Source of the DNA: a virus
Virus record (IMG/VR): IMGVR_UViG_3300035180_002599
Location: 1-64,000 of that record
Direction: 5' to 3' (one strand)
DNA length: 64,000 bases
Part shown: positions 2,744-62,301 of the stretch, one piece after another
How the letters are laid out: every line of letters starts with the position of its first letter
How positions within the stretch are numbered: the first letter of the stretch is position 1
Translations under genes and position numbers: made by a program
The notes under the pieces: model-generated
Told to the model about the DNA's origin: nothing
Databases searched by the model: none
The model's input: the letters and a program-made list of their open reading frames with translations, nothing else

Positions 2744-5323
2744 TTAATCTCCTGTTACTATATATAAACCAAATGATCCAGAATCTGGTTTTATCCAAAA
2801 GACCTGTTCACCGGTTGCTGGCGTTGGTTGTGTAGCTTGGATAAAAACATTATTTGTTCCACTTGATATATTTATATCTCCACTACCTAATAAACTATTC
2901 CCGTTTATAGTTTTAATGTTTGTTCCAGAAACTAATGTATCTTGTTTACTTGTATCTGATGGATGGGTATGATCTGCTAAAGCAACCGTTGTAGATGATC
3001 CAATATTCGCTATTCCATCCATATTCGGAGTAGTAGAAGATAAACCAGTAATTCCATTAAATGATGTTCCAGTAGCTACACCAATATCAGGTGTGACTAG
3101 AGATGGAGAGTTTAATGGTGCTTTTAAATCCAAAGCAGATTGTACAGCAGTTGAAATTGGTTTTGATAAATCAGAAGTGTTATCAACAAAATTTAAACCA
3201 ACATCATCTTTAACTAATGTAACAACTCCTGTTTTACCAGCAACTGAATCTACCGCACCTGAAGTGATGTAGATATATATCGAACCTGACCATCTGTATG
3301 TTTTATTAGTATCTAAAGCAACATATATTTTACCAGTTTCGCCAGTTGTCGGAAAAGATGCGAAGTTTGCAAATTCTATAACATCATCAACATAACTAGG
3401 AAGTTGAGAAGATGGAATTAATGCATTTTCATCAAGAGTTGCAACACCATTTGCAACTCCTTTTTCTGATGATGCTATACGAGCAGTTGCATCTATAGCA
3501 TTAATAGTAATATCAGCACTTCCATCAAATGGAATACCATTAATATTTCGTGGTGTTTGCAACATAGTTGCTGTTCCTGCATTACCAGTAATGTTTGTCT
3601 GAGCAGGATGTACATGGTCTGCTCTAGCAACCGTTGTACTAACACCTACTGTAGCAGTTCCTGATACTAATGGTATTGTTGAACTTAGATCCGTAATATT
3701 ATTAAAACTGGTTGCATTTAATGCACCAGTACTTGGATTGTATGTTAATTTAGTACTTGATACTTTTGCATTTAATGATCCAGAGGCACTAGTTCCTAAA
3801 ACCGGATAATATGTAGCATTCGTAGTAGTATCATCAGTTACTGATACAGTACCAGAAATAGCTAAATCAGTTGAACCTAATAATGAATTACCATTAATTG
3901 TTCTTATGTTTGTTCCACTTATTAATGTTGGTTGAAATGCTGTACTATCTAAACCATCTAATAAGTCCGCATTAAGATTTGTAACTTTAGTTGTACTTGC
4001 GACAACTAATGGTGGTGTACCTGTTCCAACTGTTGAAATGTGTTGCGTACCTGAAATACCTGCAGGAAAGTACACGTACTTATTCCTATCGTAATACTCG
4101 ACATTTCTTCGTCCAATAGGATAACCACCAAACCATTCAATAGCCCCAAGCTGAACTCCATTTGCATTAATTGATGTGTTTGTAGAGTTAAATGTTACAC
4201 GCACAGCTTTTGATTTATCAGATGTTGAAGCAGAAGGTTGAAAGGCGATTGTAGTGTGCGGAATATATACATGTATAGGCCAACCATTAACCGAACCTGA
4301 TGTCACAAGGTTCCATGAAGAATCGGAGGCATCTTGTTCCTCTATCTTTATTGTTATCGTATTTGAATTAGTAGAAATATAAGAGTAGAACTTATTAAGG
4401 AAAACGTAGCTGTTTAGTGCATTAATATCCCAAGTTATACGCCATGAATTAGTAGAATTTGCCGGAATAATTGCTTGAAGTGCTGCACTTTGACCTTCGC
4501 CAATCATCATATCTGCAAGGTTATTTGCGGATACCCTGGTACTTGTTGTCCATGTCGTACCGTCTGTAGATTCTTCTTGAATAGTTGGTGATATAAATCT
4601 AAATTTATTATTCATTTCACCATGAATTAATGCCATTTCTTCAACAGCTGGCGTGCCAAGATTATATGTTACTGTGTTATTTATAGAATTTACACCAGAA
4701 AAAGCATTTGCTGAAATTTTACCACTTCCATCTCTTATAGGAATGGTGTTTGCTGCAATAGTTGTTAAAGCGGTTACCCCGTTTAATGAAGAAGCATTTA
4801 CATTAGTAATTGATGCACCATTACCAATAAAGTTCGTAGCACTTAATGTGTTTCCTGAGAACTGAAAGAAGTTAGAACCAGAATAAAATCTTAATGAACC
4901 ATCCGAATCTAATGATTGAATACCTGATTTGAATACACCATTACTTGTTCCAGATAATAACCAAGTTGCGGATGAATCTGTACCCATAATAGCATTAAAT
5001 GCACCAGTATTCACGCCATTAGTAACTCCCCACGGGGAGTTAGAACCGGTAGATTGTATATATGACGCAGCCGTTTTTGAGATTTTTCCAGTGTCTAGTT
5101 CGTTAATAGCTGCTTGTACAGTTGTTGAAACAATACTCCCAGCCGGTACATTTGATATTGTTCCAGCCGATGTTAAATCAAGGATACTTGGTGACCCATT
5201 ATCCTTCCGCATGAATAACTTACCATCGTACGTATTCATTGCTAATTCGCCTAAAGCCAAGTTGGCAGTTGTTGGAATATTCCCTTGTACAGCCGAACGC
5301 TTTAATAATATTGGTTGTGCCAT
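2744..5323 (-). CDS. Tail fibre-like protein
   Basis: This 859-residue protein begins with an ILLKRS...LALGELAMN module like the N-terminal domain of the Mtd family and many T4-like cyanophage fibres. The body has repeated fibre motifs: SVAGKTGVVTL with DDVGL, LADHTHPSDTSK, and TINGNSLLGSxD. It probably forms a trimeric beta-rich fibre for host recognition. The neighbouring 464-residue protein shares the N-terminal module and the ADHVH-type repeats, so the two are paralogues. A TATAAATA octamer lies about 50 bases upstream on the same strand. Fibre identity is well supported; the exact T4 equivalent (gp34-37, gp12) cannot be set from sequence alone. Confidence 0.8.
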   Translation of the reverse strand: MAQPILLKRSAVQGNIPTTANLALGELAMNTYDGKLFMRKDNGSPSILDLTSAGTISNVPAGSIVSTTVQAAINELDTGKISKTAASYIQSTGSNSPWGVTNGVNTGAFNAIMGTDSSATWLLSGTSNGVFKSGIQSLDSDGSLRFYSGSNFFQFSGNTLSATNFIGNGASITNVNASSLNGVTALTTIAANTIPIRDGSGKISANAFSGVNSINNTVTYNLGTPAVEEMALIHGEMNNKFRFISPTIQEESTDGTTWTTSTRVSANNLADMMIGEGQSAALQAIIPANSTNSWRITWDINALNSYVFLNKFYSYISTNSNTITIKIEEQDASDSSWNLVTSGSVNGWPIHVYIPHTTIAFQPSASTSDKSKAVRVTFNSTNTSINANGVQLGAIEWFGGYPIGRRNVEYYDRNKYVYFPAGISGTQHISTVGTGTPPLVVASTTKVTNLNADLLDGLDSTAFQPTLISGTNIRTINGNSLLGSTDLAISGTVSVTDDTTTNATYYPVLGTSASGSLNAKVSSTKLTYNPSTGALNATSFNNITDLSSTIPLVSGTATVGVSTTVARADHVHPAQTNITGNAGTATMLQTPRNINGIPFDGSADITINAIDATARIASSEKGVANGVATLDENALIPSSQLPSYVDDVIEFANFASFPTTGETGKIYVALDTNKTYRWSGSIYIYITSGAVDSVAGKTGVVTLVKDDVGLNFVDNTSDLSKPISTAVQSALDLKAPLNSPSLVTPDIGVATGTSFNGITGLSSTTPNMDGIANIGSSTTVALADHTHPSDTSKQDTLVSGTNIKTINGNSLLGSGDINISSGTNNVFIQATQPTPATGEQVFWIKPDSGSFGLYIVTGD

Positions 5324-5372
5324 GTGGTATATAACCTTTTCAAATCATATATATGATTTATTGAATTTAGTA

Positions 5373-5380
5373 TATTTATA
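5373..5380 (-). promoter_or_regulatory. T4-type late promoter octamer
   Basis: An exact TATAAATA on the minus strand about 50 bases before the large fibre gene. This matches the T4 late -10 recognised by gp55, and the window encodes a gp55 homologue. Confidence 0.6.
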
Positions 5381-5413
5381 GTTAGAAAATATATATAAAT
5401 CCGAAGTCTTATA

Positions 5414-6808
5414 TTAGAATGACCCGCCATCAATTGTAGATGAAATACTAATAGCATCAGTAATACCATAACCAGCAATAGTTGTTGGTTTAGATGTGAT
5501 TGAAACCCAAGTAGGAGCTAATGCTACCGCCGCTCCGATAGAAGTTATACGACCTTTTGCATCAACCGTAAATGGTCTAACTTCCGTTGCGACATTATTA
5601 TATGTTCCAGCGGTAACACCACTATTTGCTAAAGTAAGTGCAATTGTTCCAGTATTAAGAGCAGTAGCAGTGGCTGTAACATCCCCAGTTACTGCAAGAG
5701 TTTGAGTAGCAGGGAGTTGTGCAACGTTTAATACATTTCCTAAACCAACATCATCAGCAACAAGGGTAACTGCTCCAACTTTACCAGCAACACTTACAAC
5801 GTCAGGAGAACCACCTTCTACTTTATCCCATGCAGTACCATCAAATACAATTAAGTCACCAAGAGACCAGTTATTGTTAGAATCAATAGTAGTATTACCA
5901 GCAACACTGACTTTATAGTAATAACCTTTAGTACCTGTTCCATTGGTAAGTGTAGGAGTATTAGTTGAAGCATTCCAAACACCTTGATAACTTAATCCAC
6001 CAACTAAAGAATCGGGAATTTGTGAGACTGTGAGTTTTCCGGATGAATCAAGTGTAGCAACACCATTATTTGCACCAAGCAATGAGATACTTACTTTAGT
6101 TGTATCCGAAGCATGAACGTGATCTTCTCTTGCTGCTTTAGTGCTTACACCAACTGCGGCTATTGAATCCATTAGTGGAGCGGCAATAGCTAATCCTGTG
6201 ATACTATTAAAACTTGTACCAGTTGCTACACCAATATTTGGGGTTACCAAAGTTGGTGAATTACTTAATACTACCGAACCAGTACCAGTACTAGTTGTTG
6301 TTCCGGTACCTCCATTCGCCACGGCTACAATACCAGTTACATTTACAGCATTACCAGTAATGTTACTATCTAAGAATGCAATTTGTTTTGTAGCAGTACC
6401 ATTGTACCATTTTAGTACCCCATTATTTGCCCAAAGGTCTCCAGAAAATGGAGCGATTGGATCAACAGTACCATTTGGTAATAATAATGAAGCGCTTGAT
6501 GCGGTTGGTGTCATAAGAATTTGTTTGCCACTAAACAAATTAGAATTTAATGATGCTTTAGATGTGTCTGATGCATGAACGTGGTCAGCCCTTGCCCACG
6601 TTGTAGCTGTACCAACTGCAGCTGTTCCATTCATTACAGGAATTGTTGTTGATGCTTGACCAAGACCTCCAATTACCTCAACGTTAGCTCCACCATTAGT
6701 TCCAATGAAAAGGTTTTTGCTTAATGCGGAGTAAGCTAATTCCCCTTCTAATAATGATGCAGGGGTTGCTGTTGTATTAGATCTTTTAATTAAAATCGTT
6801 TGTGACAT
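5414..6808 (-). CDS. Tail fibre-like protein, paralogue
   Basis: A 464-residue protein starting with ILIKRSNTT...LLEGELAYS, the same N-terminal module as the larger fibre downstream. Repeated blocks include WARADHVHASDTSK, REDHVHASDTTK and VAGKVGAVTLVADDVGL. The C-terminus has SITSKPTTIAGYGITDA, common at fibre tips. It probably builds a second fibre or a fibre segment. It sits in the minus-strand virion operon, 16 bases from the next gene upstream. Confidence 0.75.
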   Translation of the reverse strand: MSQTILIKRSNTTATPASLLEGELAYSALSKNLFIGTNGGANVEVIGGLGQASTTIPVMNGTAAVGTATTWARADHVHASDTSKASLNSNLFSGKQILMTPTASSASLLLPNGTVDPIAPFSGDLWANNGVLKWYNGTATKQIAFLDSNITGNAVNVTGIVAVANGGTGTTTSTGTGSVVLSNSPTLVTPNIGVATGTSFNSITGLAIAAPLMDSIAAVGVSTKAAREDHVHASDTTKVSISLLGANNGVATLDSSGKLTVSQIPDSLVGGLSYQGVWNASTNTPTLTNGTGTKGYYYKVSVAGNTTIDSNNNWSLGDLIVFDGTAWDKVEGGSPDVVSVAGKVGAVTLVADDVGLGNVLNVAQLPATQTLAVTGDVTATATALNTGTIALTLANSGVTAGTYNNVATEVRPFTVDAKGRITSIGAAVALAPTWVSITSKPTTIAGYGITDAISISSTIDGGSF

Positions 6809-13559: not shown

Positions 13560-13635
13560 GCCATTCATACAAATCAAGTGAATGTACCAGACTGAAAATC
13601 TGAGGAGCCGGGAGCGTTACCCGGGAATGGCACCA
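13560..13635 (+). tRNA. tRNA-Phe(GAA)-like gene with non-canonical T-loop
   Basis: The acceptor GCCATTC/GAATGGC is perfect, with A and an encoded CCA. The anticodon loop is CTGAAAA (GAA) on a stem with one C-A mismatch. The T stem CCGGG/CCCGG is perfect but its loop is AGCGTTA. The D arm is TACA/TGTA with loop AATCAAGTGAA, lacking GG. A canonical tRNA-Phe lies about 120 bases downstream with a related acceptor stem. Confidence 0.6.
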
Positions 13636-13673: not shown

Positions 13674-13747
13674 GTGTTCGTAGCATAAAAGTAATGCGCT
13701 GGTTTGTGGCACCAGATAAGCGGGAGCGTTACCCGTCGTTCACCCCA
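13674..13747 (+). tRNA. tRNA-His(GUG)-like gene with non-canonical T-loop
   Basis: The D stem GCAT/ATGC has loop AAAAGTA, and the anticodon stem CTGGT/ACCAG has loop TTGTGGC (GTG). The T stem is GCGGG/CCCGT with loop AGCGTTA. The 3' end is C73 plus CCA, as expected for tRNA-His. The acceptor GTGTTCG/CGTTCAC has U-U mismatches at positions 4 and 5, the same two as in the canonical tRNA-His twin downstream. No G-1 is encoded (the base is T). Confidence 0.6.
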
Positions 13748-56395: not shown

Positions 56396-57406
56396 ATGAA
56401 TTATGATTTACAAACTTTCAAAAATATGTTACCAGATGGATATACGCTTTTGTATGTAACAAAATCTGGATCTCAGTTGTACGGGACAAATACACCAAGA
56501 TCCGATACCGATTATAAAGGTGTTTATGCACCATCTGTTTATAGTTTAGTAACCAAAACAGATTTAGAAGAAGTTAAAAACGACACCGGAAATGACAAAA
56601 CAAAAAACAGTGCAGATGATGTGGATTGTACTTTAGATTCATTAGGTAAATTTTTTCTATTGCTCTCTAAAGGTGAAACTGGAGCATTGGACGTATTATT
56701 CTCTATGTTTCGTGAGGATACTATAGTTTATGCAGAGCCAACATTTTTAGAACACATGAAAACTGTGTATAAAGGTTTTTTAAGCTCAAACACTAAAGCG
56801 TTCATGGGATATTGTTTTCAACAAGCTACGAAATACGGCCTTAAAGGTAAACGATATGATTCATTGATGAAATTATTCAATGAAGCGTCTCCTTTAAATT
56901 CATCTAAAGATCTTACCGTTGCTGATTGGTTGGGAAATTTAGACTTTTCTACATTTGATGAAGCTCACGTAAAAGTAACTAGCAAAGATAATGGTGAATA
57001 TTTGTATGTTCTGGGGCGGGAATTTCATATGAAAATGCCCATGAAAGATGCGGGTCCCGTTTTGGAGAAAATGAAAGGAATGTATGGTGAAAGAACCAAA
57101 CAAGCATCAGAATCAGCTAATGGATCCACTGATTGGAAAGCCTTATCTCATGCAGTTCGTGTTGTTGAAGAAGCAAAAGAATTATTGACAGATGAGTTCA
57201 TAACGTTTCCATTAAAAAATGCAGAATATGTTAAACTTGTCAAACAAGGAAAATGTTCTGTAGAAAATGTAATGGAAACATTAGAACAAGAAATGAACAC
57301 AGTAGAAAATTTGCTACTAAGTACTAAATTACCTTCAGAAGTTGATAAGAATTTTGTGGATACAACTTTGTATTCAATAATAGATTTTTACAAAGCTCAA
57401 GCCTGA
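56396..57406 (+). CDS. RlaP-type nucleotidyltransferase
   Basis: A 336-residue protein with the PF10127-type signature SGSQLYGTNTPRSDTDYKGV (GS at 25-26, catalytic D-x-D at 37-39), then VDCTLDSLGKFFLLLSKGE and a helical C-terminal domain. RlaP (RNA-ligase-associated polymerase-beta-like) proteins are linked to RNA repair operons. Here an RNA ligase fusion and a P-loop kinase are elsewhere in the window. Confidence 0.8.
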   Translation: MNYDLQTFKNMLPDGYTLLYVTKSGSQLYGTNTPRSDTDYKGVYAPSVYSLVTKTDLEEVKNDTGNDKTKNSADDVDCTLDSLGKFFLLLSKGETGALDVLFSMFREDTIVYAEPTFLEHMKTVYKGFLSSNTKAFMGYCFQQATKYGLKGKRYDSLMKLFNEASPLNSSKDLTVADWLGNLDFSTFDEAHVKVTSKDNGEYLYVLGREFHMKMPMKDAGPVLEKMKGMYGERTKQASESANGSTDWKALSHAVRVVEEAKELLTDEFITFPLKNAEYVKLVKQGKCSVENVMETLEQEMNTVENLLLSTKLPSEVDKNFVDTTLYSIIDFYKAQA

Positions 57407-59271: not shown

Positions 59272-59808
59272 TTATGCGTTTTGTGCTCTTGATGTCCAAC
59301 CAGCAAGAAACATCTTTTGTGAGGGGTTATCTTGTACGATTTTATATAGGAAATCCATACGTGCTTTCTTATATTCACGAACAAATGACTCAGCACCAAA
59401 TGTATTAATTGCATCAACTGTATGAGGACCCATCTGACCATCAACTGTTGATTTTACAATCGTCTGTGCATATTTCACTGCACGGCTAACACCACTATTA
59501 ACGGCAAAATCATACATATTATTTGCGACGTTTTGATCGGTAATTAGATCACCCATTATCATATCCCAGAAATTTTTCTTATAGAAGTTCATAACACTAT
59601 TAGTTAATTCAACATCGCTCATAAGCAATTTATCGAAATTAGTAGGGTTAGATTTTTTCATTTTATCAATTATTGTCCATCCGTCCCATTTAGGAAAGAA
59701 ATTTCGTGCAATACCACGAAAAGTCTCACCACCTTTATCATTAGGGTTATTAACATACCCACCTTCAAATACAGAAGTTTTTTCAAATGCTATTTTAAAA
59801 TCAGCCAT
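59272..59808 (-). CDS. GH108 muramidase (endolysin or virion lysozyme)
   Basis: A 178-residue GH108 enzyme. E15 in VFEGGYVNNPNDKGGETFRG is the catalytic residue; IARNFFP, MYDFAVNSGVSRAVKYAQ and VDGQMGPHTVDAI (a peptidoglycan-binding-like repeat) follow. It hydrolyses the glycan of peptidoglycan. With no signal peptide it needs a holin or virion delivery. A decayed C-terminal copy lies about 2 kb away. Confidence 0.9.
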   Translation of the reverse strand: MADFKIAFEKTSVFEGGYVNNPNDKGGETFRGIARNFFPKWDGWTIIDKMKKSNPTNFDKLLMSDVELTNSVMNFYKKNFWDMIMGDLITDQNVANNMYDFAVNSGVSRAVKYAQTIVKSTVDGQMGPHTVDAINTFGAESFVREYKKARMDFLYKIVQDNPSQKMFLAGWTSRAQNA

Positions 59809-59872: not shown

Positions 59873-59890
59873 CATAAATACAAAATATAT

Positions 59891-60257
59891 GGGGTCGAAA
59901 TAGGATTCGACATTTTTTCTGTGTAATATAACAATCAAGCAATCTGGGAAGATTTTAAATATCCAACAAATAATAACAGCAAACTCAACTAGCTATAATA
60001 CATCTTACGCACTAGCTGCGTAATGTACGGGGTTGTCAAGACTCGCCCTGTTACCTAAATCTTGACTCCTTGTTTACATAGGATAAAATGTAAGTTGTTC
60101 GATATGCAATTCATAATCGCGAGTATTAGAAAGTAATACAATCATTATACAATGAATAAATGTTTTGATTTTCGGTTTTTAAGAAAGCCGTCTAAGCTTG
60201 TATTAAATTGTTATGTGAAGGATGAAATGGAACTCGGGGCAGTACCGAGCGACTCCA
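59891..60257 (+). ncRNA. ssrA: Phage tmRNA with non-canonical T-loop
   Basis: GGGGTCG opens the acceptor and pairs with CGACTCC at the 3' end; AGGATTCGAC is the conserved tmRNA D region. The P2 helix pairs CAAGC with GCTTG and ATAACAAT with ATTGTTAT. The tag frame starts at GCA (59979) and encodes ANSTSYNTSYALAA then TAA, ending in the usual ALAA degron. A pseudoknot (GTCAAGA/TCTTGAC with ACGGGG/CCCTGT) follows. The T stem CTCGG/CCGAG is perfect but its loop is GGCAGTA. CCA is not encoded. It could rescue ribosomes stalled during infection. Confidence 0.88.
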
Positions 60258-60445
60258 ATCTTTCTAAGAATTAACCTTCACGCGGTGAAAGATGTAAGTA
60301 CTCGATAGAGGAAACTAATAATTCTAAAATAAAGTATGAAATGAATATCTTTGAAAAAGAAATAATTTTCCTAGAGGTTTCTTCAGGTATAATGGATAGA
60401 ATTTATGTTGGTTGATATACCTGAGTGTTGATTATCAATAAAGGA
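60258..60445 (+). ncRNA. Structured RNA region after tmRNA
   Basis: There is no ORF. It contains TTCAC-GCG-GTGAA and a TCAGGTATA/TATACCTGA hairpin with a 22-base loop. It probably lies on the tmRNA primary transcript and may be trailer or a separate small RNA. Confidence 0.35.
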
Positions 60446-60524: not shown

Positions 60525-61337
60525 ATGACAAAAAACTTAATGGAAATTCTGGACTCTTGTGAATTTGTAACCAAACACGTAACAATAAATGAAGAATTAT
60601 TATATTCATTTTCTAATAAAATGATTAAACCTATCCCGGTTACACCTAAACATTCCAAAAACTTGAAAATAGATATATACAATAGCATAATGGATTCTGC
60701 ATTACAATTCTGTTTTTGGTATGGAAATTCCTCTATTAGAATCAATAATCATTCTAGTTCAGAAATTACTAGATTGGTAAAAGAATATAGTTATGATATT
60801 GAGCTATTAAAGAAGCATATTAGATTAGCTCGATTCCCTAATATCGAGTCCAGAACAAAAATTATAGATGAAATTGGGCCTATTAACACTAACAGAATGA
60901 GAAGAATAATTTCTATTATATCAAACACTAGAGATGTTGATTCTATATTGAGTACATTAACTGCAGAATTTGATTCATTCGCAAATGATATACTTCTCAA
61001 AAAAGCTTTATTAACCGTTATGTCTATCCATTTTAAAACTGGAATAATAAAAGATCCAGAAAAGATATTAATTCCTGCTGACTATCAAATTCCTAAAATG
61101 CTTAGACATTTTGGTATTCTTAAATATTCAAATGAATTAGCATATAAAGTTGACAATAACATACTTCTCCTAGAAAATTCAGAAGAAGAATTAGCTATTC
61201 GTATTCAAGCTATAAAAGCGGTTAAACGGATACAAGATTTATCTCAAGTTCCTTCATATATGATAGATCAAATACTTTTTCATTCTAGAAAAAATATAAC
61301 ATCAAATCATCATCTAACAATTACCACGAGTTATTAA
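60525..61337 (+). CDS. Queuosine-salvage Qng1-like (DUF2419) protein
   Basis: A 270-residue protein with features of queuosine 5'-phosphate N-glycosylases: ALQFCFWYGNSSIR, FANDILLKKALLTV, then IPADYQIPKMLRHFGILKYS followed by IRIQAIKAVKRI. In that family a D-Y-R/Q-V/I-P-x-x-L-R segment is diagnostic. It would release queuine from Q nucleotides for reuse. The phage also has queD. Identification is from motif memory only. Confidence 0.65.
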   Translation: MTKNLMEILDSCEFVTKHVTINEELLYSFSNKMIKPIPVTPKHSKNLKIDIYNSIMDSALQFCFWYGNSSIRINNHSSSEITRLVKEYSYDIELLKKHIRLARFPNIESRTKIIDEIGPINTNRMRRIISIISNTRDVDSILSTLTAEFDSFANDILLKKALLTVMSIHFKTGIIKDPEKILIPADYQIPKMLRHFGILKYSNELAYKVDNNILLLENSEEELAIRIQAIKAVKRIQDLSQVPSYMIDQILFHSRKNITSNHHLTITTSY

Positions 61338-61704: not shown

Positions 61705-62301
61705 ATGATTAATTTACAAAAAGGTCAGTCAATCAATTTGTCAAAAGAAGTGAATGCTCAAGGATTACAAAATCTTCGTGCAAGTATCGGATGGGATCCA
61801 AATAAGTTTAACACTGGTGGAAAATTTGATTTGGATATCAGTTGTTTCGCTTTGGCAGATTTGGGCGGAGGTTCTTATAAACTTCAAAAAGGTTCTGATT
61901 TCTGTTTTTATAATGCACCAATTTCAGCAAACGGAGCTTTGAAATATAGTGGAGATAACACTACAGGTGGGGGAGAAGGTGATGATGAGTACATCGATAT
62001 TGATTTGAGCAAAGCTGAAGCTGGCATTACAAACTTTTCAATTGTCGTTAGTATTCCAGAGCCACTTAACAGAACATTAAACTTTGGTATGGTTAGTAAC
62101 TCATATGTAAGAATTACAAACACATTGACTGGTGAAGAAATTGCCCGATATGATCTCGGAGAAGATTTCAGCACAGAAACGGCAGTCCAATTCGGTTCAA
62201 TTTACCTTTATAACAATGAATGGAAATTCAAAGCAATCGGGCAAGGGTTTCAAGCAGGTCTTAGTGAATTTTTGGAAGAATACAAATACGATAACAACTA
62301 A
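61705..62301 (+). CDS. terD: TerD-family protein, copy 1
   Basis: A 198-residue TerD/CABP-like protein. It starts INLQKGQSINLSKE, has RASIGWDPN, FDLDISCFAL, and the calcium-site stretch YSGDNTTGGGEGDDEYIDID, then SNSYVRITN and WKFKAIGQGFQAGL. TerD proteins bind Ca2+ and act in tellurite/stress and phage-defence gene clusters. It is paired with a second TerD and TelA. Confidence 0.88.
   Translation: MINLQKGQSINLSKEVNAQGLQNLRASIGWDPNKFNTGGKFDLDISCFALADLGGGSYKLQKGSDFCFYNAPISANGALKYSGDNTTGGGEGDDEYIDIDLSKAEAGITNFSIVVSIPEPLNRTLNFGMVSNSYVRITNTLTGEEIARYDLGEDFSTETAVQFGSIYLYNNEWKFKAIGQGFQAGLSEFLEEYKYDNN

Follow-up and report, generated by a model that had tools for sequence, protein, structure and literature searches.

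A one-piece tmRNA gene and a gene for SmpB lie 12.6 kb apart in the viral genome analysed here, and we take it as probable (about 70%, judging from sequence) that they form a phage-owned trans-translation pair, in which a putatively functional tmRNA works with the SmpB of the same genome. Of the new facts, the presence of SmpB on the same record tells us the most. The window, by which we mean the whole stretch of DNA analysed, covers bases 1-64000 of a viral record of 93,309 bases (classed linear; G+C 30.6%). The genes of the record include those of a contractile-tail sheath, UvsX, clamp loader, ribonucleotide reductase and NAMPT, and the best matches of UvsX among phage records are C48C1 (64%, 156 kb) and Acidovorax phage ACP17 (60%, 156 kb). 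On account of the sheath, UvsX and clamp loader genes and of these 156-kb relatives, we classify the phage by its gene content as a T4-like myovirus; the record probably holds part of its genome.

An earlier note, made from the letters alone, had proposed a phage-encoded tmRNA at 59891-60257 with the tag ANSTSYNTSYALAA. The Infernal search that it suggested gave an RF00023 match over the whole model at 59891-60258 (+) of the window, scoring 60.7 bits where the gathering score is 47 bits (E 2.9e-21 over 64 kb), and both the coordinates and the tag were correct. ARAGORN called four tRNAs in the window and no tmRNA. The parts of the gene are the following.

59891-60257, plus strand: one-piece tmRNA gene, RF00023 60.7 bits, helices paired, mature ends predicted
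59891-59897, plus strand: 5' strand of the acceptor stem, GGGGUCG, 7/7 pairs with 60250-60256 including the G3-U pair
59898-59911, plus strand: D-loop AAAUAGGAUUCGAC, with A15, U17 and G19 kept (E. coli numbering)
59941-59965, plus strand: pseudoknot pk1, weak, with 5 and 4 pairs and one base in common
59979-60023, plus strand: tag reading frame, resume codon GCA, ANSTSYNTSYALAA, stop UAA (GCA...GCG UAA)
60005-60023, plus strand: P5 hairpin, 7 pairs, enclosing the end of the tag
60028-60066, plus strand: pseudoknot pk2, 5 + 7 pairs in pseudoknot order
60193-60201, plus strand: standard-body motif UAAGCUUGU, overlapping the 3' strand of P2d (60196-60200)
60233-60249, plus strand: T-arm CUCGG-GGCAGUA-CCGAG with a two-piece-type T-loop, T-stem 60233-60237 with 60245-60249, 5/5 pairs
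60238-60244, plus strand: T-loop GGCAGUA, two-piece type
60250-60257, plus strand: 3' strand of the acceptor stem, CGACUCC (60250-60256 paired), and discriminator A at 60257

The tmRNA is genuine and all the standard parts are present. Of the parts that had been described by eye, the P2 helix, pseudoknot and acceptor stem do pair when the helices are checked by script (P2 in segments of 5, 6 and 5 pairs), pk1 being the weaker pseudoknot, the resume codon is in place, and the tag ends in ALAA as claimed, followed by the stop UAA. The features expected of an RF00023 member, a tRNA-like domain carrying G3-U70 and the discriminator A and a resume codon with tag and stop, are found here, and the tag frame is aligned to the resume region of the model. 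The G3-U pair is an identity element for AlaRS. CCA is not encoded 3' of the discriminator A (60257), where the genomic sequence reads AUC. Folding gave a minimum free energy of -85.6 kcal/mol (z -2.08), with 3/100 shuffles equally low, which taken alone is moderate.

Looking for smpB elsewhere in the genome had also been advised, and it was found outside the window on the same record.

72856-73305 (L002:8856-9305), plus strand: smpB, 149 aa

The curated cut-offs for SmpB (PF01668/TIGR00086) are exceeded, with 135.1 bits against 27 for PF01668 and 142.2/119.1 and 132.1/130 for the two NCBIfam equivalog models. The protein is 30-38% identical to the six other SmpBs aligned, which come from phage-collection records (five huge phages and one short faecal 'phage' contig). 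At the site of the G-T/S-E motif, GTE or GSE in the other six, it reads SFE, so that the motif is lost. The bases of tmRNA reported to contact SmpB, A15, U17 and G19 (PMC8363625), are all present in the D-loop of the window.

The T-loop had been called odd, with the question of how SmpB, EF-Tu and alanyl-tRNA synthetase would treat it. It is indeed not UUCRANY, as the one-piece genes otherwise have it (UUCRANN), and belongs to the GGCRGUA type, a trait of the alpha group (RF04321/RF01849) whose Rfam alpha_tmRNA consensus is GGCgGUA. The UUCRANN loop is typical of the RF00023 group but not defining, since the RF00023 model still scores the window gene over its cut-off. A GGC-type T-loop pattern in tmRNA context matched 121/398 Pseudomonadota genomes (about 114 with a true T-stem by inspection, the last seven being chance matches), and the bacterial loci with GGC[AG]GTA that were fetched were permuted in 30/30 cases. 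RF00023 was above cut-off in 97/150 bacterial genomes; 30 of the one-piece loci were fetched and 27 parsed, all 27 with a UUC T-loop, and among the 31 bacterial genomes with GGC[AG]GTA in the shared set none had a one-piece match over cut-off. The GGC-type pattern was also found in at least 119 stretches of viral contigs. The pattern imposed no T-stem pairing, and the T-stem was perfect in 120/120 viral matches listed, window included; with an AGCGTTA version of the pattern, four or more T-stem pairs were seen in just 6/23 viral matches. The 120 viral matches listed comprise 106 in permuted order, 5 in one-piece order (the window, L248 and L270 in full, L234 and L240 without the message part) and 9 left unassigned, and CCA is encoded in 115 of them. 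Damage or sequencing error as the source of the loop was rejected, because the same loop with perfect T-stems recurs in all 120 of these matches. One mitochondrial tmRNA with GG replacing UU, and a G in Caulobacter, have been noted already (PMC1168896). According to Keiler 2000 (cited in PMC11915505), a two-piece tmRNA of this general type works in Caulobacter, so the loop is no obstacle in principle. By these sequence comparisons alphaproteobacterial-type two-piece tmRNAs normally have GGCAGUA as their loop, and it poses no anomaly to SmpB, EF-Tu or AlaRS; the real oddity is a two-piece-type elbow inside a one-piece gene.

The window gene is not permuted, its 5' half beginning at 59891 and its 3' half lying 338 nt downstream, and it scores 22.3 bits with RF04321 against a cut-off of 47. 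Its 5' end GGGGNCGAAATAGGATTCGACA, with one base left free, was found in 10 viral stretches, 10/10 of them permuted with GGC[AG]GTA. The standard-body motif stands upstream of the T-arm in 19/27 bacterial one-piece genes and in 2/155 permuted ones; it is present in the window and in L248 and absent from L270. Some UUC one-piece genes, a minority, also have D-loops like that of the window, and therefore the D-loop alone does not decide the class. The body motif on one side and the classes of the 5' end and T-loop on the other thus make the body of the standard type and the tRNA-like part of the two-piece type, and we describe the gene, from these motifs, as a chimera (or re-permuted form) that joins a one-piece body to a two-piece elbow. 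It shares gene order, body motif, tag frame, P5 and pk2 with the RF00023 one-piece tmRNAs, from which it differs in having GGCAGUA instead of UUCRANN and in the lack of an encoded CCA; with the permuted two-piece tmRNAs (RF01849, RF04321) it has in common the T-loop and the 5' end GGGGNCGAAATAGGATTCGACA, whereas its halves follow the standard order and enclose the tag. Its origin may lie in exchange, re-permutation or convergence. A tmRNA of permuted ancestry returned to standard order, as is mentioned for the mitochondrial tmRNA of Jakoba libera (PMC11915505), would resemble the window gene.

At least 120 viral stretches (loci L440-L556, L240, L330) matched a pattern for the tRNA-like domain alone, lacking the message part, with about one chance match estimated for the pattern. 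Among the matches listed there are 84 distinct sequences of 74-98 nt in 119 loci, and 119/119 of the listed loci examined have 7/7 acceptor and 5/5 T-stem pairs. None of 32 records bearing such mini-tmRNAs had SmpB over cut-off. Nine standard tag-less sequences are listed in PMC11915505, and the tag-less class is therefore known but small in print; by analogy with phage DS6A, the minis are possible decoys for SmpB or tmRNA. Position 13 of the D-loop and position 55 of the T-loop covary in the 84 distinct minis listed (G-U 59, A-G 15, G-C 6, others 4), A13 accompanying G55 in 15/15 G55 minis among the matches listed. The same two positions are G-U in 27/27 bacterial one-piece genes and A-G in 105/106 viral permuted genes among the matches listed. 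Positions 54-58 are U-A, G-G, A-U or A-A in the minis listed. The window tmRNA, with G13 by right alignment, departs from this pattern, unless its D-loop contains an additional base.

Phage tmRNAs are uncommon, as the earlier note had it: 402 of 18,146 phage genomes are given as bearing one (PMC9004378). Melnitz and the pelagimyophages likewise carry ssrA on the phage genome, but their tmRNAs are two-piece and a phage smpB is not mentioned in the pertinent account (PMC9004378). Phage tmRNA is thus known, and the pair with SmpB is rare but not unprecedented, since an earlier study of huge phages (Al-Shayeb 2020, PMC7162821) reports both tmRNAs and SmpB. Via SmpB we found five huge-phage records, and in three of them, those of two Lak phages and of LR756504, RF00023 is likewise over cut-off. 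These three share with the present record an SmpB together with an RF00023 tmRNA, their genomes being of 540-636 kb, compared with a record of 93,309 bases here; the T-loops of the two Lak tmRNAs are UUC and that of the 636-kb phage is odd, with 8 nt. The tmRNA of this 636-kb phage (L060, LR756504) has the T-loop UGUCGUAA and a D-loop without the GGxUUCGAC form. In a 735-kb phage, a group I intron (L067:1272-1503, minus strand; RF00028, 96.1 bits) adjoins a weak tmRNA-like match. In a search of a literature collection with few subscription journals, nothing on a phage tmRNA-SmpB pair came up other than the statement of Al-Shayeb 2020. RF04321 was run on 14 UvsX relatives (15 records counting the own one) and gave 2 permuted tmRNAs, in G023 (L370; tag ANDNTVEFALAA, T-loop UGCGAAU) and in G042 (L371; tag ANDNAPSVVESEMLLAA, T-loop AGCGUCA). 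Both of these T4-like relatives have intact tags of the ANDN type.

The tmRNA gene stands among phage genes, and the record holds several others related to translation and RNA repair.

59272-59808, strand opposite to the tmRNA: endolysin gene, adjoining the tmRNA
60525-61337: queuosine-salvage gene, directly after the tmRNA
56396-57406 of the window: RlaP
L002:11635-12171: stand-alone HD_4 protein, best NCBIfam match RelA/SpoT, below that cut-off
L002:14072-14485: PTH2 (peptidyl-tRNA hydrolase)
L003:4851-6074: T4-type RNA ligase, above the Pfam cut-off and below the NCBIfam one
L003:6569-7654: HD plus P-loop protein

The translation and RNA-repair genes may form a set that keeps translation going under attack. 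The HD_4 protein resembles the hydrolase end of RelA/SpoT, a likeness that makes phage control of (p)ppGpp possible. Late in the record, L003:11075-14022 encodes a QueC match, a radical-SAM protein and an unclassified protein of 477 aa, possibly a base-modification set together with the queuosine-salvage protein. There are also three TerD-domain proteins (L002:2806-3465, 3942-4523, 5104-6132) and a TerC/DUF475 protein (window 61705-62301). Assigning a host from TerC (best match 50%, sphingomonads, with biased search patterns) or from the UvsX matches (64% to phage C48C1, 60% to an Acidovorax phage) was rejected. Beside the canonical tRNA-Phe and tRNA-His genes, the window has a Phe-like (13560-13634) and a His-like tRNA (13674-13747) with the T-loop AGCGUUA and a D-loop without GG. 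Their 15-mer T-arm is found in 85 viral stretches, and 42/89 matches (window included) have it in a context of 7/7 acceptor and 5/5 T-stem pairs, against 3 for a shifted control that tests the acceptor stem only; a search of the literature on phage tRNA elbows gave no lead. A candidate late promoter CATAAATA at 59873 was rejected, such octamers being without enrichment by a rough count, and sigma-70-like sites occur at chance level. Neither blastn and megablast searches of phages nor SmpB as a single-protein query against viral contigs gave a useful lead.

If the gene is expressed, its RNA would be trimmed by host enzymes, with CCA added after transcription, and charged by host AlaRS via G3-U70 and A73. 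The phage SmpB (or that of the host) would bind the elbow, where the contact bases of the D-loop are kept, and GGCAGUA would act as a working alternative elbow common to two-piece tmRNAs. EF-Tu would then bring the tmRNA to ribosomes stranded on broken messages, and the nascent chain would receive ANSTSYNTSYALAA and be released at UAA. The presumed gain is the recycling of ribosomes (and amino acids) when breakdown of host mRNA or defence nucleases strand ribosomes. Counting against the pair are the moderate fold, the CCA that is not encoded, the lost SmpB motif and the G at D-loop position 13 by right alignment, unlike the A found with G55 in viral permuted genes, as well as the lack of conservation: among 47 UvsX-related viral contigs, none had RF00023 over cut-off and none had SmpB.

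The tmRNA could instead work with the SmpB of the host, while the phage SmpB has some other role (e.g. with the host tmRNA) or was picked up recently as a passenger. SmpB was found in 0/50 other viral records chosen for a tmRNA or tmRNA-like match, many of which are fragments, and therefore most phage tmRNAs probably do use host SmpB; the divergence of the phage protein and its lost motif point the same way. We still regard this as rather unlikely for the present genome, as the tmRNA and smpB share one 93-kb record, the SmpB frame is intact at 149 aa and passes the equivalog cut-offs, and huge phages that keep SmpB can keep a tmRNA too. Loss of function, the gene being a passenger or a decaying remnant of host origin, would agree with the missing CCA, the weak pk1 and the lack of conservation in UvsX relatives. 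Yet the long-range helices that were checked are fully paired despite a genome of 31% G+C, smpB is retained as well and tmRNA genes with intact tags are kept in two of the UvsX relatives, all of which makes decay quite improbable.

Inhibition of tmRNA by an RNA consisting of the TLD only, like the one in phage DS6A, has been reported (PMC4131195, PMC11915505) and tag-less minis are common in viruses, so a decoy is conceivable, with phage tmRNA and SmpB titrating host factors and blunting host trans-translation. A decoy needs neither resume codon nor ALAA tag, stop, P5 or pk2, all of which are kept here, and we hold it to be very improbable. Finally, the sequence comes from a metagenome as a viral contig of the linear class, which is often fragmentary, and a bacterial tmRNA or smpB might have been joined to it in assembly or binning. 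This is scarcely credible considering that the tmRNA is flanked by the endolysin and queuosine-salvage genes, that UvsX, sheath and clamp loader lie on one side of it and the T4-type RNA ligase beyond smpB on the other, and that this T-loop was never seen in the bacterial one-piece genes surveyed.

The preferred reading thus remains a phage tmRNA working with the phage's own SmpB. An extension of it, which we put forward as doubtful though possible, is an orthogonal pair, in which a chimeric tmRNA and a divergent SmpB tuned to its elbow would keep rescue under phage control whatever the type of the host tmRNA; such a gene could have originated by re-permutation, or a tag-less GGCAGUA mini-tmRNA could have gained a message domain by insertion. 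The survey suggests that tag-less mini-tmRNAs are common in viruses and that there is an alternative tRNA/tmRNA elbow, in which D-loop and T-loop clearly covary. The window gene accounts for standard software overlooking such genes. It shows that the two tmRNA body plans are combinable, which bears on the origin of permuted tmRNA genes and on their possible reversion, and the phage would offer a natural tmRNA-SmpB pair on a genome of moderate size, where recognition of the elbow can be tested.
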